The translations under genes were made by a program, and so were the position numbers. Below the pieces are notes generated by a model. The model was not told the origin of the DNA. It saw only the letters and a program-made list of their open reading frames with translations, and made no database searches. A stretch of DNA of 41,639 bases from a virus, in IMG/VR virus record IMGVR_UViG_3300008117_000407, positions 1 to 41,639 of that record. One strand, 5' to 3'. Positions 15,411 to 31,108 of the stretch are shown one piece after another. How positions within the stretch are numbered: position 1 is the stretch's first letter; each line of letters opens with the position of its first letter.

Positions 15411-15535
15411 TGTCGGGCCTCCTACCTACTCCTCGGCCCGATAAGGGCCGCTGTACTGTTATTCGCCTACGGCTCATATTGTAGTCTCTGATATCTAAAC
15501 CTCCGATATAGACACGCCGTGATATGATCTGCCTT
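15411..15535. promoter_or_regulatory. Divergent intergenic region with leaderless promoter for the + operon
   Basis: Between the minus-strand unit and the + replication operon. TGaTATGAT at 15520-15528 is an extended -10 element. Its start point, about 7-8 bases on, falls at the ATG at 15536, predicting a leaderless mRNA. No good -35 is visible. A 7-bp inverted repeat (TCGGGCC and GGCCCGA) around 15414-15441 and the octamer GCCCGATA also lie here, close to the minus-strand start. Confidence 0.55.
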
Positions 15536-16096
15536 ATGACAACTTTGGTAGGGATCCAGGGACCTGACTTCGTAGTATTAGCCGCCGATTCTCAAATCAC
15601 CGATAACGATCAGCGGATCATTTCTACTCAGACACCTAAGATCGTAAGCGTAGGTGACTACCTGATAGGTATCACGGGCGACTCACGACCTGGAGATATC
15701 CTCGCGTTTAATTGGAAACCACCAACGTATAAGAACTACGATCCGGTGGAGTGGATGGGTAAGAAGATACTGCCAAGTATCTACGCTGCCTTTAAGGATA
15801 ATGGATACGAGCCATCCGATAAGGAAGCCAGCTACGCCTACCTGATCGCCTTCGATGGGATCTTATTTTCTATCGGATCTGATCTATCCTTCAACGCTAG
15901 TGAACGTGGACTCTTCACCGCCGGTAGTGGTGGAGCCTTTGCTCTTGGCTACCTCTACTCACTTAAACCTAATTCCTACAAATCCTTGCTGATGTCTAAG
16001 GTGGTAGCAGAAAGGGCAGTAATGATCGCGTCGGTACTTGACGTGAACACCTGTCCTCCGATTCAATTAGTTACTCAACAGAAGGGATGGAAATAA
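15536..16096 (+). CDS. Proteasome beta / HslV-like Ntn hydrolase, 186 aa
   Basis: Threonine peptidase of the proteasome/HslV fold. Start chosen at 15536 (upstream in-frame ATG at 15524) because it gives MTTLVGIQGPDFVVLAADSQ. Removal of Met exposes Thr1 exactly as in HslV, and an extended -10 lies at the right distance. Visible: T1, D17 in AADSQ, Lys at 33-34 in TPKIVSVGD, GITGD, and GSGGAFALGYL near the C-terminus. All are family landmarks, though the Lys is one residue further on than in HslV. No partner ATPase gene is seen nearby. It could degrade host regulators, work with a host unfoldase, or be a self-assembling peptidase. Confidence 0.8.
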   Translation: MTTLVGIQGPDFVVLAADSQITDNDQRIISTQTPKIVSVGDYLIGITGDSRPGDILAFNWKPPTYKNYDPVEWMGKKILPSIYAAFKDNGYEPSDKEASYAYLIAFDGILFSIGSDLSFNASERGLFTAGSGGAFALGYLYSLKPNSYKSLLMSKVVAERAVMIASVLDVNTCPPIQLVTQQKGWK

Positions 16097-17686: not shown

Positions 17687-17953
17687 GTGCGCGAGCCTAG
17701 GTTCTATGAGAATCCAGCTTGCGCGACAGTCGGTGGCGACTTCTGGTTTCCTGAAAAGGAGGCCGGAAGTTCTAACACAACCGAGATGGTTATGGCTAAA
17801 TCAATTTGTAGAAGGTGTCCACATCAAGCAGAGTGTGCTGAGTGGGGTATACAAAATGAGATGCACGGTATCTGGGGTGGCATAACTGAAGGTCAACGCA
17901 GGCTAATCAGACGTGAACGAAGAATAGTATTAAAGGGGGAAGGCATTGCTTGA
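17687..17953 (+). CDS. whiB: WhiB-family iron-sulphur regulator, 88 aa
   Basis: GTG start three bases after the previous stop. Cluster ligands C12 (NPACA), C41-x-x-C44 (CRRC) and C50 (AEC) are in WhiB spacing. They are followed by the G-I-W-G-G turn (61-65) and a basic tail (RRLIRRERR), the full WhiB plan. These proteins hold a 4Fe-4S cluster and bind the principal sigma factor to redirect transcription. They are confined to actinobacteria and their phages, which is the strongest host indicator here. Adjacent genes suggest early-to-middle expression. Confidence 0.93.
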   Translation: MREPRFYENPACATVGGDFWFPEKEAGSSNTTEMVMAKSICRRCPHQAECAEWGIQNEMHGIWGGITEGQRRLIRRERRIVLKGEGIA

Positions 17954-20743: not shown

Positions 20744-21248
20744 AGCAAAGTTAAACAACATAACTGGCAACGTTTATGCTGATGAATGGTATACAGACCA
20801 ATCAACCGTAGATAAATGCCTTGAACTGTTGAATCCAATAGACGGTTCAACTGTTATGTGTCCATTTGATTCGCAAGATAGTTTATTTGTTAAAACTTTG
20901 CTTGATAAAAACTATAAAGTTATCTATAACATTACCGATTATCTAACCAACGACTATGAGTATGACTATCTAGTAACTAACCCACCCTTTAGTATTAAAG
21001 ATGCTGTTATTGAAAAGGTATTTCGGGCAGGCAAGCGTAGCGTGCTTATCCTTCCACTCGATTCGCTTGGTGGCGTGAAGCGTCACTCACTTTATCAACA
21101 GTATGGTTATCCACATATCTATATTCCTACTAGACGCATAAGTTATTACGATCAGAGCTGGAAGAAGAAAGAAGGTTCTAACTTCCACAGTGTAGTTGTT
21201 ACCTTTAACCATCAGGAAGAACCTAAAGTTTTATGGGAGAACCAGTGA
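20736..21248 (+). CDS. Adenine-specific DNA methyltransferase-like protein, 170 aa
   Basis: GTG start inside the preceding gene. Catalytic motif NPPF (82-85) in YDYLVTNPPFSIKD. The SAM-binding motif I would fall in TVMCPFDSQDSL and is weak, without the usual glycines. Short for a Dam-type enzyme, with no clear target-recognition domain, so it might modify something else or be a degenerate enzyme. Proposed role: protection of phage DNA from host restriction. Confidence 0.65.
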   Translation: MAEAKLNNITGNVYADEWYTDQSTVDKCLELLNPIDGSTVMCPFDSQDSLFVKTLLDKNYKVIYNITDYLTNDYEYDYLVTNPPFSIKDAVIEKVFRAGKRSVLILPLDSLGGVKRHSLYQQYGYPHIYIPTRRISYYDQSWKKKEGSNFHSVVVTFNHQEEPKVLWENQ

Positions 21249-21877
21249 GTGATCTGCACCCTATCGTCTATGAGTTAGCACCGTCTGTTGCCTATGCAAT
21301 TCACCGGCGCTATAAGAATTGGGTAGAGCGAGATGATGTTGCTCAGGAGTGTATAGCCTGGGCTATCACACGCAATGCCTACATCACAGACCAGATGAGC
21401 GTTGAAGATCCTCAGCAGTTAGAACATAATCAAAGGCGTATCGCTTGGCAGATGAAGCGTGCAGTCGAACGCTATGCACGCAAGGAGAAGGCTAACAAGT
21501 CTGGCTATCAGATCAACGATGAGGTTTATTACCAGACCTTTACTCTTGGTCAGCTACTCCCATTCGTCATTGCTTCAGTCATAGATGGCACAGTATTAGA
21601 GCAGATGCAGGAGATGATTAACGATGGTCAACCACGTGGATCATCTAGTCCAGCAGAAGGTGGCAACCTACTTGCTGCGCTGATAGATATTAAGAAGTGT
21701 TTTATGAAACTAGATCAGAAGGATCAGACTGTATTGCGTATGCGTCACTACGATAACGCTACCTTGCAGCAGATAGCGCAGTACCTAGAGTGTGCAGTAT
21801 CTACTGCTGATCGCAGATGTAGTAACTCACTGCGTAGATTACAAGAAGAGCTAGGTGGGGAGACACCCTTCCGATGA
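21245..21877 (+). CDS. Sigma-70-like / ECF-type sigma factor, 210 aa
   Basis: Start at GTG 21245 chosen because GGGAGA lies just upstream and it overlaps the previous stop (GTGA); an ATG at 21233 has no site. Region 2-like part: AIHRRYKNWVERDDVAQECI. Region 4 helix-turn-helix: KLDQKDQTVLRMRHYDNATL, then QQIAQYLECAVSTADRRCSN and LRRLQEEL. The middle is divergent. With WhiB it could redirect host RNA polymerase to late genes. It could also be a sigma-like DNA-binding protein that lost core binding. Confidence 0.7.
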   Translation: MSDLHPIVYELAPSVAYAIHRRYKNWVERDDVAQECIAWAITRNAYITDQMSVEDPQQLEHNQRRIAWQMKRAVERYARKEKANKSGYQINDEVYYQTFTLGQLLPFVIASVIDGTVLEQMQEMINDGQPRGSSSPAEGGNLLAALIDIKKCFMKLDQKDQTVLRMRHYDNATLQQIAQYLECAVSTADRRCSNSLRRLQEELGGETPFR

Positions 21878-25821: not shown

Positions 25822-26424
25822 TTAATCGGTATAGCTCATAGGCATAAGTAAGGCTCGCCAGATGATCTTGTCGCCAGTAATTCTCACTCGCATAGGCTTA
25901 TTGTTACCGTTAAAGTAGATCTTAATAGCTGCCTTCTTACCCGCGATCTTAGCGTAATCTGCCATAAGCGCAGGGTTAAAGGCTACGCCTTCTACCGCTA
26001 CTGGCTCACCTTCACTCTTAGAAAATAGCTCTTCCGTAGGCGGAAAGGTACCGCCTAATAGGGTAAAGGTAATCGCGTCACCTAGTGAGCTTGCCGTAAT
26101 CGTGTCCCCGATACGCGATAGCTGCACGCGGTTAGCCTTATGCGCCTTGCATAAGGTGATTACTCTCTTAATATCGTCTAGTGATACTAGGCTAGGCTCT
26201 AACCGCCCGTCTAGGCTAGGCAAGCTACCCTCGATCAAGCGGTATCTATCGGTAGCTCTGGCCTTAAATAACCCGCCCTCACTCTCTATCTGCACCGCGT
26301 TAAGGGTAGGTCGCCCCTTATCTTTATCCGCGTGACTAGCCACTCCCTCTAGTAGCTCTAGTAGGTTATTGCCCTCTAGCTCCACGTAATTCACCGCTAC
26401 CTTACTCTCTTCTACCGTGCTCAT
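25822..26424 (-). CDS. dnaN-like: DNA polymerase III beta-type sliding clamp, short form (200 aa)
   Basis: Ring protein that tethers DNA polymerase. Landmarks of the clamp C-terminal domains: ATDRYRLIEGSL, GTFPPTEELF, AFNPALMADYAKIAG, and NKPMRVRITGDKIIWRALLM ending PMSYTD. Cellular clamps are about 370 aa with three domains; at 200 aa only two domains fit, the size of trimeric clamps such as T4 gp45. No polymerase is encoded, so it probably binds the host Pol III alpha. Largest gene of the minus-strand operon. Confidence 0.8.
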   Translation of the reverse strand: MSTVEESKVAVNYVELEGNNLLELLEGVASHADKDKGRPTLNAVQIESEGGLFKARATDRYRLIEGSLPSLDGRLEPSLVSLDDIKRVITLCKAHKANRVQLSRIGDTITASSLGDAITFTLLGGTFPPTEELFSKSEGEPVAVEGVAFNPALMADYAKIAGKKAAIKIYFNGNNKPMRVRITGDKIIWRALLMPMSYTD

Positions 26425-27949: not shown

Positions 27950-28249
27950 TTATTCCCCTTTATTCTCTAGCGCTGCAATAGTGCGCTTAGCGGAATTGCA
28001 TAGTGCGGGCATATCTATCTCGTCTCTGCATTCCCAATAATATTTAGCGTCAGATAATAGGTCTGCGCGTCCCGCTTGATCGAGCTCGACGGTGACGCGA
28101 TTACCATTCACCTTAATCACTTTATCGGTGAGACCGCATCCACGATCTCGATGATCGAGATAGAAGATCGCAGGCACTTTATAGATGCTGCGCGGGCTAT
28201 CTATTCCATAGCCCCATTCTGCAAGATAGTCGAGCTCTTCTTTATTCAT
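27950..28249 (-). CDS. Unknown protein, first gene of the minus operon (99 aa)
   Basis: AAAGGGGATAGTA upstream of the ATG and a promoter just before it (start point about 28267, leader about 18 bases). MNKEELDYLAEWGYGIDSPR, then VNGNRVTVELDQAGRADLLS and ALCNSAKRTIAALEN. No family recognised. As the promoter-proximal gene it should be the earliest made protein of this operon. Confidence 0.65.
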   Translation of the reverse strand: MNKEELDYLAEWGYGIDSPRSIYKVPAIFYLDHRDRGCGLTDKVIKVNGNRVTVELDQAGRADLLSDAKYYWECRDEIDMPALCNSAKRTIAALENKGE

Positions 28250-28309: not shown

Positions 28310-28377
28310 TGGTCATAAATTGTATGTGACTGGTCACACTTATATTGGACACATTAGCCGATTATGTCCAATGGTCA
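28310..28377. promoter_or_regulatory. Operator-like repeats upstream of the minus promoter
   Basis: Three TGGTCA copies begin at 28310, 28331 and 28372, that is 21 and 41 bases apart, near whole helical turns. TGTGAC-TG-GTCACA (28325-28338) and a TTGGACA...TGTCCAA inverted repeat (28345-28371) lie among them. Likely binding sites for a regulator. Confidence 0.5.
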
Positions 28378-28381
28378 GAGC

Positions 28382-28410
28382 TGCTCGATGTCGCTCGATG
28401 CTGCTCGATA
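28382..28410. repeat. Three tandem 10-bp repeats (GCTCGAT)
   Basis: GCTCGAT at 28383, 28393 and 28403, each in a 10-base unit of form yyGCTCGATr. Direct, head to tail, one copy per helical turn. Possible protein array (origin or operator). Confidence 0.55.
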
Positions 28411-28461
28411 GCTGCAGGGTTAGCGGGATCGGTTACTTAATCGAGGGGAATAGGTGAGCGA

Positions 28462-28556
28462 TAGACCGCCAGAAGTAGAGCCAGCCCCTACACTTTCTAT
28501 AGACCAACGCCCTAGACCGCCAGACTAGACCGCAAGACTAGGCCGTCAGTCTAGGC
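28462..28556. repeat. 13-bp iteron-like repeats (CTAGACCGCCAGA)
   Basis: TAGACCGCCAGA occurs exactly at 28462-28473 and 28513-28524. Three head-to-tail 13-base units run 28512-28550 with a partial fourth (28551-28556), and a degenerate copy lies near 28500. Candidate replication origin or packaging-recognition array, since it lies between the control promoter and terminase. Confidence 0.55.
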
Positions 28557-28666
28557 AGGGCACCCCCCCTTGTTAAATACGGGAGTGGGTTATGTTATGT
28601 ACCCTAACAAAAAATATTTGCTAAAGTTAAAGCTGTGAAGTAGGCTCTGAACAGCACTTTTACCGG

Positions 28667-28682
28667 TGTGATAAAGATCACA
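28667..28682. promoter_or_regulatory. CRP-type palindrome TGTGA-N6-TCACA
   Basis: TGTGATAAAGATCACA matches the CRP/GlxR half-sites perfectly with the standard 6-base spacer. Located in the non-coding control region upstream of the structural operon. Confidence 0.6.
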
Positions 28683-28730
28683 GAAATAAAACGGGAAATG
28701 CAGTAAATTTCCTGCCTTAGTATACAGTAG

Positions 28731-28935
28731 GGGAGCAAAGCGGGGAAGACCTTTGCGACCCGTACGGCTGCCTCTTACGAGGCCCCTAGGCCGAGCACTG
28801 ACTTACCCCTCAGTTCGCTGTAGCTCCCTCGGGCGCTAAGCCCGATACTGGCGGTGCCATTTAGTCGGGTGAGGACTATCGAAGCCCGATAGTCTGCAGA
28901 CGAAGATGAGTCACTTACTAAGTAAGTTACAAATC
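28731..28935 (+). ncRNA. Candidate structured RNA: chain of hairpins
   Basis: Outer stem GGGAGC (28731-28736) with GCTCCC (28823-28828). Inside are GCAAAG/CTTTGC (28735-28756), GCCTC-TTAC-GAGGC (28770-28783) and ACTGA/TCAGT (28797-28814). Beyond are TCGGGC/GCCCGA (28829-28845), a perfect 8-bp GACTATCG/CGATAGTC (28874-28894) and ACTTAC/GTAAGT near 28913-28927. No plausible coding frame covers it and it appears GC-richer than its surroundings. It could be a small RNA, a 5' leader of the structural operon, or a packaging or origin structure. Strand is not certain. Confidence 0.5.
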
Positions 28936-28938
28936 TTT

Positions 28939-29031
28939 GTCCTAGTTCTATCTAATACCTAGATCCGATAAATTCCTCAGCCCGATATATAAAATCACTT
29001 CCGGCCCGTCCATAACATTAAGGAAACTACT
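28939..29031 (+). promoter_or_regulatory. Leader upstream of the structural operon
   Basis: AT-rich, with TATAAAAT at 28988-28995 as a possible -10 but no convincing -35. AGCCCGATA at 28979 repeats the sequence found at 28839 and 28883. AAGGAAACTACT precedes the first gene. Confidence 0.35.
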
Positions 29032-29229
29032 ATGGCAACACCAAAACCTAAAAATTCTAAGCAGTCAGCAAAAACAAAAAGAGCAAGCCAAGAAGCAGCC
29101 GCTACTGCAACACGCAAAGCCAACTCTGAAAAATTAAAACTTGCCCTAAGAGCAAGTAAATCTCCAGGACGAGGTCCAATAATTTCTGGCGGCCTTGGCG
29201 GCGGCGGATTAAACAAGGCAAACAGATAA
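29032..29229 (+). CDS. Small basic protein before terminase, 65 aa
   Basis: MATPKPKNSKQSAKTKRASQ, then a Lys/Ala helix and a Gly-rich end (GPIISGGLGGGGLNKANR). Strongly basic and probably partly disordered. In small-terminase position but without a visible helix-turn-helix; DNA binding is inferred from charge. Confidence 0.55.
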   Translation: MATPKPKNSKQSAKTKRASQEAAATATRKANSEKLKLALRASKSPGRGPIISGGLGGGGLNKANR

Positions 29230-29245: not shown

Positions 29246-31108
29246 ATGGCTGACAACTCGGCTGACATAGCAAAGAGAGTTATCCTTGGCGCTGTCGCAG
29301 AAGGTATGACCGTTGAGGCAGCTACTGCCTCTGCTGGCAAATCCATCAAGACTTATGAGTATTATCGTCGTACTGATAAAGTATTTGCAGATAAGGTAGA
29401 TCGAACCCGCCTTGGTCTCAAAGATAAGCAGTTCGCCTCCGGCGATGTCCACGACTTAACCTTCCAAGAGTTCCGCCAAAGATTCCTTCATAGCCGCACC
29501 TTTGCCCATCAGCAGAATATCGTAGATGTGATCGAAGGTAGAGAACCTGGGTGGTTACACCCCAGTATGAAGTTTGAGCCAGGGCTGGCTAGCAACCGCG
29601 TCCTGATAAATATTCCGCCAAACCACGCCAAGTCCATCACGATCACTGTGGACTACGTGACTTGGCAGGTATGTAGGAATCCTAACTTTAGAGTTCTTAT
29701 CGTATCCCAGACCCAGCAACTAGCTGCCGACTTTCTCTACGCCATCAAGCAACGTCTGACTCATCCTATGTATCAAGACCTTCAGACCGCCTATGCTGCT
29801 GGTGTAGGGTTTAACTCTAAGTCTGCTTCGTGGCAGGCAACCCGCGTCACCTTCGGTGATGAACTTCGTGAGTCTAGCGAAAAAGACCCGAACATCGAAG
29901 CCGTCGGTATCGGCGGTCAGATCTACGGTAAGCGTGCCGATATGATTATTGTAGACGACGCTGTGACCTTAAAGAACGCTAACGAGTTTGAGAAGCAGAT
30001 TCGCTGGTTGACCCAGGACGTGCGATCCCGTTTGAACCCTACGGGTAAACTTATTATTATCGGAACACGAGTGGCCTCGGTTGATCTATACCGCGAGCTA
30101 CGCTCTGAGGATCGCTACCCTGGCGGTCAAGTTCCTTGGAAGTATCTAGCGATGCCGGCCCTTCTTACCGCCGATGAAGACCCCGACAAGTGGGAAACCT
30201 TGTGGCCTTTCTCTGACGCTCCATTCGATGGACAGTTAGAATCTGATAAGAACGAAGAAGGTCTATACCCACGCTGGTCTGGTCGTAACTTATATAACGA
30301 ACGCCAAGCGATGGATGCAAGCACCTGGGCTTTGGTATATCAACAGCAGGACGTTTCTGAAAACGCTGCCTTTGATCCTGTATGTGTTAAGGGATCTATT
30401 GACGGTATGCGTAAGGCAGGTAACCTAGTTGCCGGTCACCCAGGACATCCTAGAGACTTAAACGGCTTTACTTATATTTGCGGTCTTGACCCAGCGATGA
30501 TTGGCGATACCGCAGCTATCTGCTATGCCATTGACCGATCAACGAGCAAGAGGTACATAGTAGATGCTATCAAGATTAGCCGTCCGTCTCCAGCCGATAT
30601 CCGTAATCTTATTTTTGATTGGACATCCCTCTACGCCCCCTCAGAGTGGATCGTCGAGAAAAACGCCTTCCAATCCTTCCTAACACAAGACGAAGGTATC
30701 CGTATGCACTTAGCCTCACGCGGAGTGCAGTTCAAGGAACACCATACAGGTTCTAACAAGTGGGATGCCGGCTTCGGTGTTGCATCTATGTCTACCCTCT
30801 TTGGTACTAAGCAGTTTGATGGTAAGCACCATCGAGATAACTTGATACACCTACCAAGCGATCAGACAGAGAATGTCAAGGCTTTGATTGAGCAGTTAAT
30901 TACCTGGACTCCAACGACTAAGGGTAAGACCGATATGGTGATGGCCTTGTGGTTCTGTGAGATCCGAGCACGTGAGATGCTCAACTATGGCAAGTATGCC
31001 ACTCACCATATGAAAAACCCATTCCTATCTCGCCAAGAGCTAGGCAAGCGAACAGTAATCAATCTTGAAGAAGCCTTCGCTGAACAAAATAAAATGAGAG
31101 TAATTTAG
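29246..31108 (+). CDS. terL: Terminase large subunit, 620 aa, with N-terminal HTH-like domain
   Basis: DNA-packaging motor. Atypical Walker A PPNHAKS (124-130), Walker B MIIVDD (233-238), coupling motif LIIIGTR (about 269-275). Nuclease acidic residues are D415 (CGLDPAMIGD), E471 (WIVEKNAF) and D563 (KTDMVMALW). The first 60 residues (AKRVILGAVAEGMTVEAATA, then SIKTYEYYRRTD) look like the helix-turn-helix of a small terminase fused in front. This may explain why no separate small subunit is obvious. Confidence 0.92.
   Translation: MADNSADIAKRVILGAVAEGMTVEAATASAGKSIKTYEYYRRTDKVFADKVDRTRLGLKDKQFASGDVHDLTFQEFRQRFLHSRTFAHQQNIVDVIEGREPGWLHPSMKFEPGLASNRVLINIPPNHAKSITITVDYVTWQVCRNPNFRVLIVSQTQQLAADFLYAIKQRLTHPMYQDLQTAYAAGVGFNSKSASWQATRVTFGDELRESSEKDPNIEAVGIGGQIYGKRADMIIVDDAVTLKNANEFEKQIRWLTQDVRSRLNPTGKLIIIGTRVASVDLYRELRSEDRYPGGQVPWKYLAMPALLTADEDPDKWETLWPFSDAPFDGQLESDKNEEGLYPRWSGRNLYNERQAMDASTWALVYQQQDVSENAAFDPVCVKGSIDGMRKAGNLVAGHPGHPRDLNGFTYICGLDPAMIGDTAAICYAIDRSTSKRYIVDAIKISRPSPADIRNLIFDWTSLYAPSEWIVEKNAFQSFLTQDEGIRMHLASRGVQFKEHHTGSNKWDAGFGVASMSTLFGTKQFDGKHHRDNLIHLPSDQTENVKALIEQLITWTPTTKGKTDMVMALWFCEIRAREMLNYGKYATHHMKNPFLSRQELGKRTVINLEEAFAEQNKMRVI

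Follow-up and report, generated by a model that had tools for sequence, protein, structure and literature searches.

A conserved and almost certainly structured RNA upstream of the terminase gene in phages of probable freshwater Actinobacteriota

The IMG/VR virus record IMGVR_UViG_3300008117_000407 (41.6 kb, analysed over its whole length of 41 639 nucleotides and referred to below as the window) carries, upstream of the terminase large-subunit gene terL, a conserved block of about 135 nucleotides that is almost certainly a real structured RNA. The case for structure rests on covariation, since folding energy alone is insufficient to make it. An initial annotation of the window had proposed a new structured RNA in this control region, and the proposal is now strongly supported by a single pair that has undergone compensatory flips at least 13 times independently, by a covariance model (R1) that finds 65 of the 67 sources tested, and by the lack of an Rfam counterpart. 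From its sequence and setting, we tentatively read the block as a leader that acts in cis to control the entry of transcription into the terL operon, with an invariant core that would work together with the terminator at its end.

Covariation is seen along the fold (Table 1), and comparison with related phages, which the initial annotation had suggested as a check, does reveal compensatory changes. Among 148 sequences the closing pair of hairpin P4, 28813-28827, is G-C 74 times, C-G 73 times and mismatched once, and it scores higher than in any of 60 tree-based null alignments. In a phylogeny of terL, built from DNA other than the leader, both sides of this pair change together in 13 of 14 independent supported contrasts, with none in the opposite sense (sign test, p = 0.00024). 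P3 is paired in 99.6% of cells over 59 distinct rows, and its second pair occurs as G-C (24), U-A (19) and C-G (15) without being broken once. Among 71 anchored relatives the second pair of P1 is C-G in 33 and U-A in 36, and the sixth is G-C in 32, A-U in 32 and U-A in 5; other classes of 5' hairpin have P1 stems that are unrelated yet complementary, for example GGGATATAC/GTATATCCC. Judged by eye, P2 is swapped in relatives for CTCGC/GCGAG, CATCGC/GCGATG or CTTCGC/GCGAAG; it overlaps P3, with which it competes for 28781-28783. P5 is paired in 90% of cells and takes the form CGGGAGT/ACTCCCG in seven leaders. Placed on alignment A2, the structure beats each of 500 shuffles and every slid version of itself, both in cells paired and in covariation score. 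A candidate enclosing stem, GAGC/GCTC (28793-28796 with 28823-28826), is 95.7% paired with covariation not above that of shuffles. In a tree-aware scan, which has limited power outside the core, only one pair passed all null alignments, and the second signal (E = 0.05, 59% paired) reflects the 5'-hairpin classes.

Thermodynamic measures are less telling. The stretch 28725-28940 folds better than chance on the plus strand, at -85.5 kcal/mol (z = -3.1; one shuffle in 200 does as well), and reaches z = -1.8 on the minus strand; the conserved block alone gives z of about -1.7 in the window and a mean of -1.5 over 100 relatives, with the strands equal. Counts of G-U versus A-C combinations (14 versus 18, 13 of the 18 at one pair) are uninformative as to strand. 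The RNA is nonetheless probably encoded on the plus strand, because a -10-like box precedes it, a T-run ends it and the orientation of terL agrees.

Table 1. Features of the leader region in the window
Feature	Position	Strand	Remark
Conserved block AAAAAATATTTGCTAAAGT	28609-28627	+	Nearly invariant in alignment of relatives
CRP/GlxR-type palindrome TGTGATAAAGATCACA	28667-28682		Presumed activator site; perfect match
Dyad GGGAAAT..ATTTCC	28693-28713		Around -35; presumed operator or activator site
-10-like box TATACA (TATATAGTA in relatives)	28721-28726	+	Conserved directly 5' of the RNA
Whole structured leader RNA	28730-28865	+	Conserved block in TerL relatives and motif-bearing contigs
Hairpin P1	28735-28740 with 28751-28756	+	Compensatory changes
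Hairpin P2, GCCTC/GAGGC	28770-28774 with 28779-28783	+	Judged by eye
Hairpin P3, loop CCTA	28781-28784 with 28789-28792	+	Covariation
Unpaired motif TTACCCCTC	28803-28811	+	Invariant or nearly so in core alignments
Hairpin P4, inner GC/GC, loop TGTA	28812-28828, closed by 28813-28827 (and 28812-28828)	+	Covariation
Hairpin P5, TCGGGC/GCCCGA	28829-28834 with 28840-28845	+	Pairing kept
Hairpin P6, TGGC/GCCA, plus TTTAGT	28849-28852 with 28856-28859, to 28865	+	Weak in the window
Private hairpin-bearing insertion	28884-28943		Matches of relatives jump from 28883 to 28944
terL	29246-31108	+	Terminase large subunit (phrog_38, E = 2.4e-64); conserved gene 3' of the leader

The conserved unit begins right after the -10-like box and ends with a hairpin and T-run 5' of terL. 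At the DNA level the block was matched in about 75 of 80 TerL relatives (those among the matches listed), from 28602 to 28845-28883. A scan with the core motif returned at least 120 contigs and a second scan 60; at least about 200 IMG/VR contigs carry the element, and element and terL were found together at 200 loci among the matches listed. Wherever terL could be located, the element lies upstream on its strand, at 106 to about 650 nucleotides and once at 723, and the four opposite-strand matches are loose, with two to three mismatches to the motif. Contig L003 opens with an inverted leader (1-173), which is probably a contig-end assembly artefact. Exact copies of the core motif are absent from GTDB genomes, a DNA similarity search returned no named phage, and our literature search found no paper describing this element. 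The Rfam 15 covariance models, those for pRNA, 6S RNA, riboswitches and GOLLD included, gave zero matches in the window at curated threshold; the best sub-threshold match was a chance U6atac outside the block (E = 2.5). The element appears to be an uncatalogued RNA family and is widespread in its phages, whose hosts are very probably freshwater Actinobacteriota of the Nanopelagicales type.

The structured RNA that the initial annotation had thought possible is thus upheld, but its shape and borders differ from those drawn there. Its stems exist in the window, where GGGAGC (28731-28736) can pair with GCTCCC (28823-28828) and CGGG (28741-28744) is complementary to CCCG (28759-28762), and, as it had observed, the block is free of genes (zero open reading frames of at least 60 amino acids within 28310-28994) and GC-rich (63% G+C in the core, 28769-28846, versus about 47% around it). 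The first of these pairings, taken for a long-range outer stem, is broken in 28 of the 53 relatives that share the GGGAG[CT] 5' end, where 28827 is G instead of C; the real partner of 28827 is 28813. The second, taken as a hint of a pseudoknot, can form all four pairs in only 26 of the 80 relatives with the same first-hairpin type. Nor does the RNA extend to 28935 as supposed: it stops near 28865, and relatives with 97-98% TerL identity lack 28884-28943. As the matches of close relatives jump across exactly this segment, the last hairpins originally described belong to a private insertion outside the conserved RNA. Hairpin-bearing insertions also occur 3' of the leader in L012, L022, L025, L028, L119 and L147; several relatives have a long inverted repeat, ACAAAG..TTTAAAATACTAG..CTAGTAGTTTTAAACTTTGT, from which the insertion in the window differs, and such insertions are possibly small mobile hairpin elements.

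A promoter is predicted directly upstream of the RNA, and transcription would start at about 28730. In the window, the 21-bp promoter consensus has a single match. Upstream of the -10-like box lies a palindrome that fits TGTGA-N6-TCACA perfectly and is the only site in the window within one mismatch of it; judged by its sequence it is a site of the CRP/GlxR type, and 9-10 of the 10 half-site bases are matched in 146 of 155 distinct relatives, in which its distance to the -10 box falls into two classes. The dyad near -35 keeps its symmetry while its letters change, to CGCTAAA..TTTAGCG in L043 and L060 and to CGCGAAA..TTTCGCG in L075. CRP-like palindromes (TGTGACCTGCATCACA; TGTGACGTAGAACACA at about 292-308 and 348-363) are also seen in Streptomyces phage Percastrophe (L196), in a stretch of about 670 nucleotides 5' of the terminase gene.

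At the other end of the RNA, 58 of the 168 unique leaders have a stem of 5 bp or more (at least three of them G-C) directly against the T-run, in 15 distinct and unrelated versions. In L129, an 8-bp terminator-like hairpin (646-664) and its T-run precede a Shine-Dalgarno-like AGGAG, after which comes the terL ATG at 695; the gap of about 30 nucleotides from hairpin to ATG is mostly Shine-Dalgarno-like sequence and leaves almost no room for a second promoter. In L094, L168 and L235 the T-run is 57 nucleotides from the conserved TerL start. Complementarity of the 5' arm of the terminator to the leader was also assessed; it showed no excess (5.98 versus 5.63 for shuffled arms), which argues against attenuation by an ordinary alternative-pairing switch.

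One lineage (L014, L015, L016, L017, L018, L020 and L075) has lost TTACCCC, P4, P5 and P6 in a single deletion and retains the promoter, terL and, where the contig extends so far, P1-P3. The only two sources missed by model R1, L014 and L075, both lack the core. The initial annotation was to be abandoned if related phages showed no compensatory changes or lacked the block while keeping the flanking genes; compensatory changes exist, and the part of this test that did go against it is that one lineage keeps terL without the invariant core, which is thus not strictly essential.

Our reading of the block as a cis-acting leader draws on its position upstream of TerL on the same strand wherever this was checked, on the covarying fold, on conservation of both the -10-like box at the 5' end and the CRP-type site, on the terminal hairpins with T-runs and their spacing to terL in the four contigs described above, and on the joint loss of core and terminal hairpin, as expected if both work together. 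Transcription, termination and antitermination of the leader are here predicted from DNA sequence. Host CRP/GlxR, perhaps with a phage sigma factor or a dyad-binding protein, would turn the promoter on, and RNA polymerase would transcribe the leader at the head of a rightward, terL-first operon. As an antiterminator or conditional attenuator, the nascent fold, comprising P1-P5 and the invariant TTACCCCTC, would act in cis, either on polymerase during elongation or on a polymerase-bound factor, and so set whether polymerase gets past the terminal hairpin into terL and the genes that follow. Several points weigh against this. The core is dispensable in the lineage that lives without it. With its 3-4 bp, the terminal hairpin of the window and of most relatives is weak, which makes termination there doubtful; in the window P6 is a 4-bp stem, and a terminator scan calls none on the plus strand. 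Moreover, 81 of 123 relatives have a promoter-like box (such as CCTAGTATAA) in the stretch that separates the leader from terL, and terL may therefore not need readthrough. Tandem CCTAGTATAA-like boxes are found at 28944-29010 of the window and in many relatives, possibly as -10 elements for a phage sigma factor. A bolder version of the cis-acting leader, which we consider unlikely, is a processive RNA antiterminator of actinobacterial phages, unrelated to the put RNA of phage HK022 in sequence and fold, in which the folded nascent leader would load onto host polymerase so that terminators are ignored across the terL-headed operon, with the hyper-covarying pair at its centre and CRP/GlxR as its gate.

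The same downstream boxes would suit a stand-alone, trans-acting small RNA with its own promoter, a discrete 3' end at the P6 terminator and host or phage targets, terL being served from the downstream box. Promoter and terminator would then bracket the 135 nucleotides, and the invariant unpaired TTACCCCTC could serve as a seed. Such an RNA would have no need of the terL synteny that holds in every contig where it is checkable, nor does it sit well with L129, L094, L168 and L235, where a separate terL promoter would hardly fit, if at all; antisense targets of TTACCCC are not enriched in the window either, GGGGTAA being found 4 times versus 3.3 expected. The evidence together favours the cis-acting leader, and we regard the small RNA as rather unlikely. 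Less likely again is a leader that binds a ligand, either a small molecule or a protein of phage or host origin, and thereby tunes translation or stability of the terL mRNA through autogenous control or as an orphan riboswitch. An invariant, mostly unpaired core inside a sequence-variable fold is what a binding site typically looks like, but this core lies 106 to about 650 nucleotides from the terL start, with an intervening open reading frame in some contigs (the window included), no helix competes with the terminator arm and no riboswitch in Rfam matches.

The remaining alternatives are more remote. That the block works purely as DNA, as a packaging or cos site, a replication origin or an operator array, would agree with its place beside the terminase, with the failure of fold energy and of G-U versus A-C counts to tell the strands apart, and with the CRP site and the dyad, which are DNA-level signals upstream of it. 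Recognition of duplex DNA by a protein would, however, not need stems, isolated pairs among them, that swap sequence yet stay complementary, and the block runs from a -10-like box to a T-run; we think this very improbable. A part in the DNA-packaging motor is suggested by phi29 pRNA, a phage RNA of comparable size with a positional link to packaging, and by a terminase neighbourhood that is invariable. Here the RNA lies 5' of terL in the same orientation, the terminase is of the large-subunit type (phrog_38) and not a phi29-type ATPase, no Rfam family matches and one lineage lives without the core, leaving this idea with scarcely any probability. Functionless chance hairpins would fit the modest energy z-scores of the conserved block; they are already contradicted by the covariation, and we give them next to no credence.

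The cis-acting leader invites comparison with characterized phage systems. The put RNA of HK022 is about 70 nucleotides long with two stem-loops; putL lies just downstream of a phage promoter and putR about 270 nucleotides downstream, and the RNA suppresses termination without any phage protein, via the beta-prime zinc-binding domain (PMC9378689). Here, too, a phage hairpin RNA lies just 3' of a predicted promoter, as putL does, in an arrangement conserved in relatives, and it possibly acts in cis on its own polymerase. Unlike put, the leader has about 135 nucleotides and five to six hairpins (P1-P6), stands 5' of terL in actinophages and ends in a terminator-like hairpin, and there is no second copy elsewhere in the window genome, in the manner of putL and putR, model R1 matching once. 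Because size and stem number differ, we do not file the leader as a put RNA; on our analysis the likeness is one of logic only.

In phage lambda, the pR' promoter is followed by a short leader transcript, the terminator tR' and the late genes, and Q acts via DNA and a pause site. A comparable order of predicted promoter, short leader, candidate terminator (clearest in L129, weak in the window) and genes may recur here, with a possible protein-binding dyad near -35. In contrast to the Q system, the fold of this leader is under strong covariation and its promoter carries a CRP-type site. No Q homologue was identified in family scans of selected genes, beyond which no candidate protein was sought.

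Phages of the LanE43AprF5 group (L195, L242-L321) have a putative AU-rich structured leader at the same position, a homologous terL (46% identity), a similar -10 region and an upstream TATTTGCTAAA stretch resembling the 28609-28627 block, whereas sequence and hairpins differ and model R1 matches neither Planktophila LanE43-type nor Streptomyces Beephvirinae phages. The hairpin-dense block of this group, up to about 300 nucleotides 5' of terL, could be a second, unrelated leader RNA. L272 has two interleaved pairings, AATCAAAG/CTTTGATT and GACTTGC/GCAAGTC, in the manner of an H-type pseudoknot, and in L284 and L292 (Planktophila-type) tRNA-like sequences were noted by eye in the alignment between leader region and terL.

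In the window the block is intergenic, with leftward small genes on one side (the first starting at 28249) and on the other a rightward set headed by a 65-amino-acid open reading frame (29032-29229), for which a family search found no match, followed by terL. The first 50 residues of TerL (29246-29400) resemble a small-terminase helix-turn-helix fused to the large subunit. Family scans identified a WhiB protein (17687-17953) and a sigma-70-like factor (21233-21877); also encoded are a proteasome-subunit-like (Ntn hydrolase) protein (15524-16096; Pfam PF00227, E = 1.1e-6) and, on the minus strand at 25822-26424, a protein whose resemblance to the central beta-clamp domain of DNA polymerase III lies under the Pfam cut-off. 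The nearest named relatives of TerL are those of Planktophila phage LanE43AprF5 (46%) and then Streptomyces Beephvirinae (43%), and the host is for this reason very probably a freshwater actinobacterium. LanE43AprF5 (OX376641) infects 'Ca. Planktophila' (PMC10202952).

The natural variants described above, namely the swapped pair, the swapped terminators and the core-deleted lineage, allow the mechanism to be tested directly in reporter constructs. To our knowledge, pure RNA antitermination is documented mainly from lambdoid phages, and Actinobacteriota of the Nanopelagicales type are among the most abundant lake bacteria. If the RNA is indeed an antiterminator or a conditional leader, it would show how their phages time the expression of packaging and particle genes, and would tie that timing to the cAMP-type regulator of the host.
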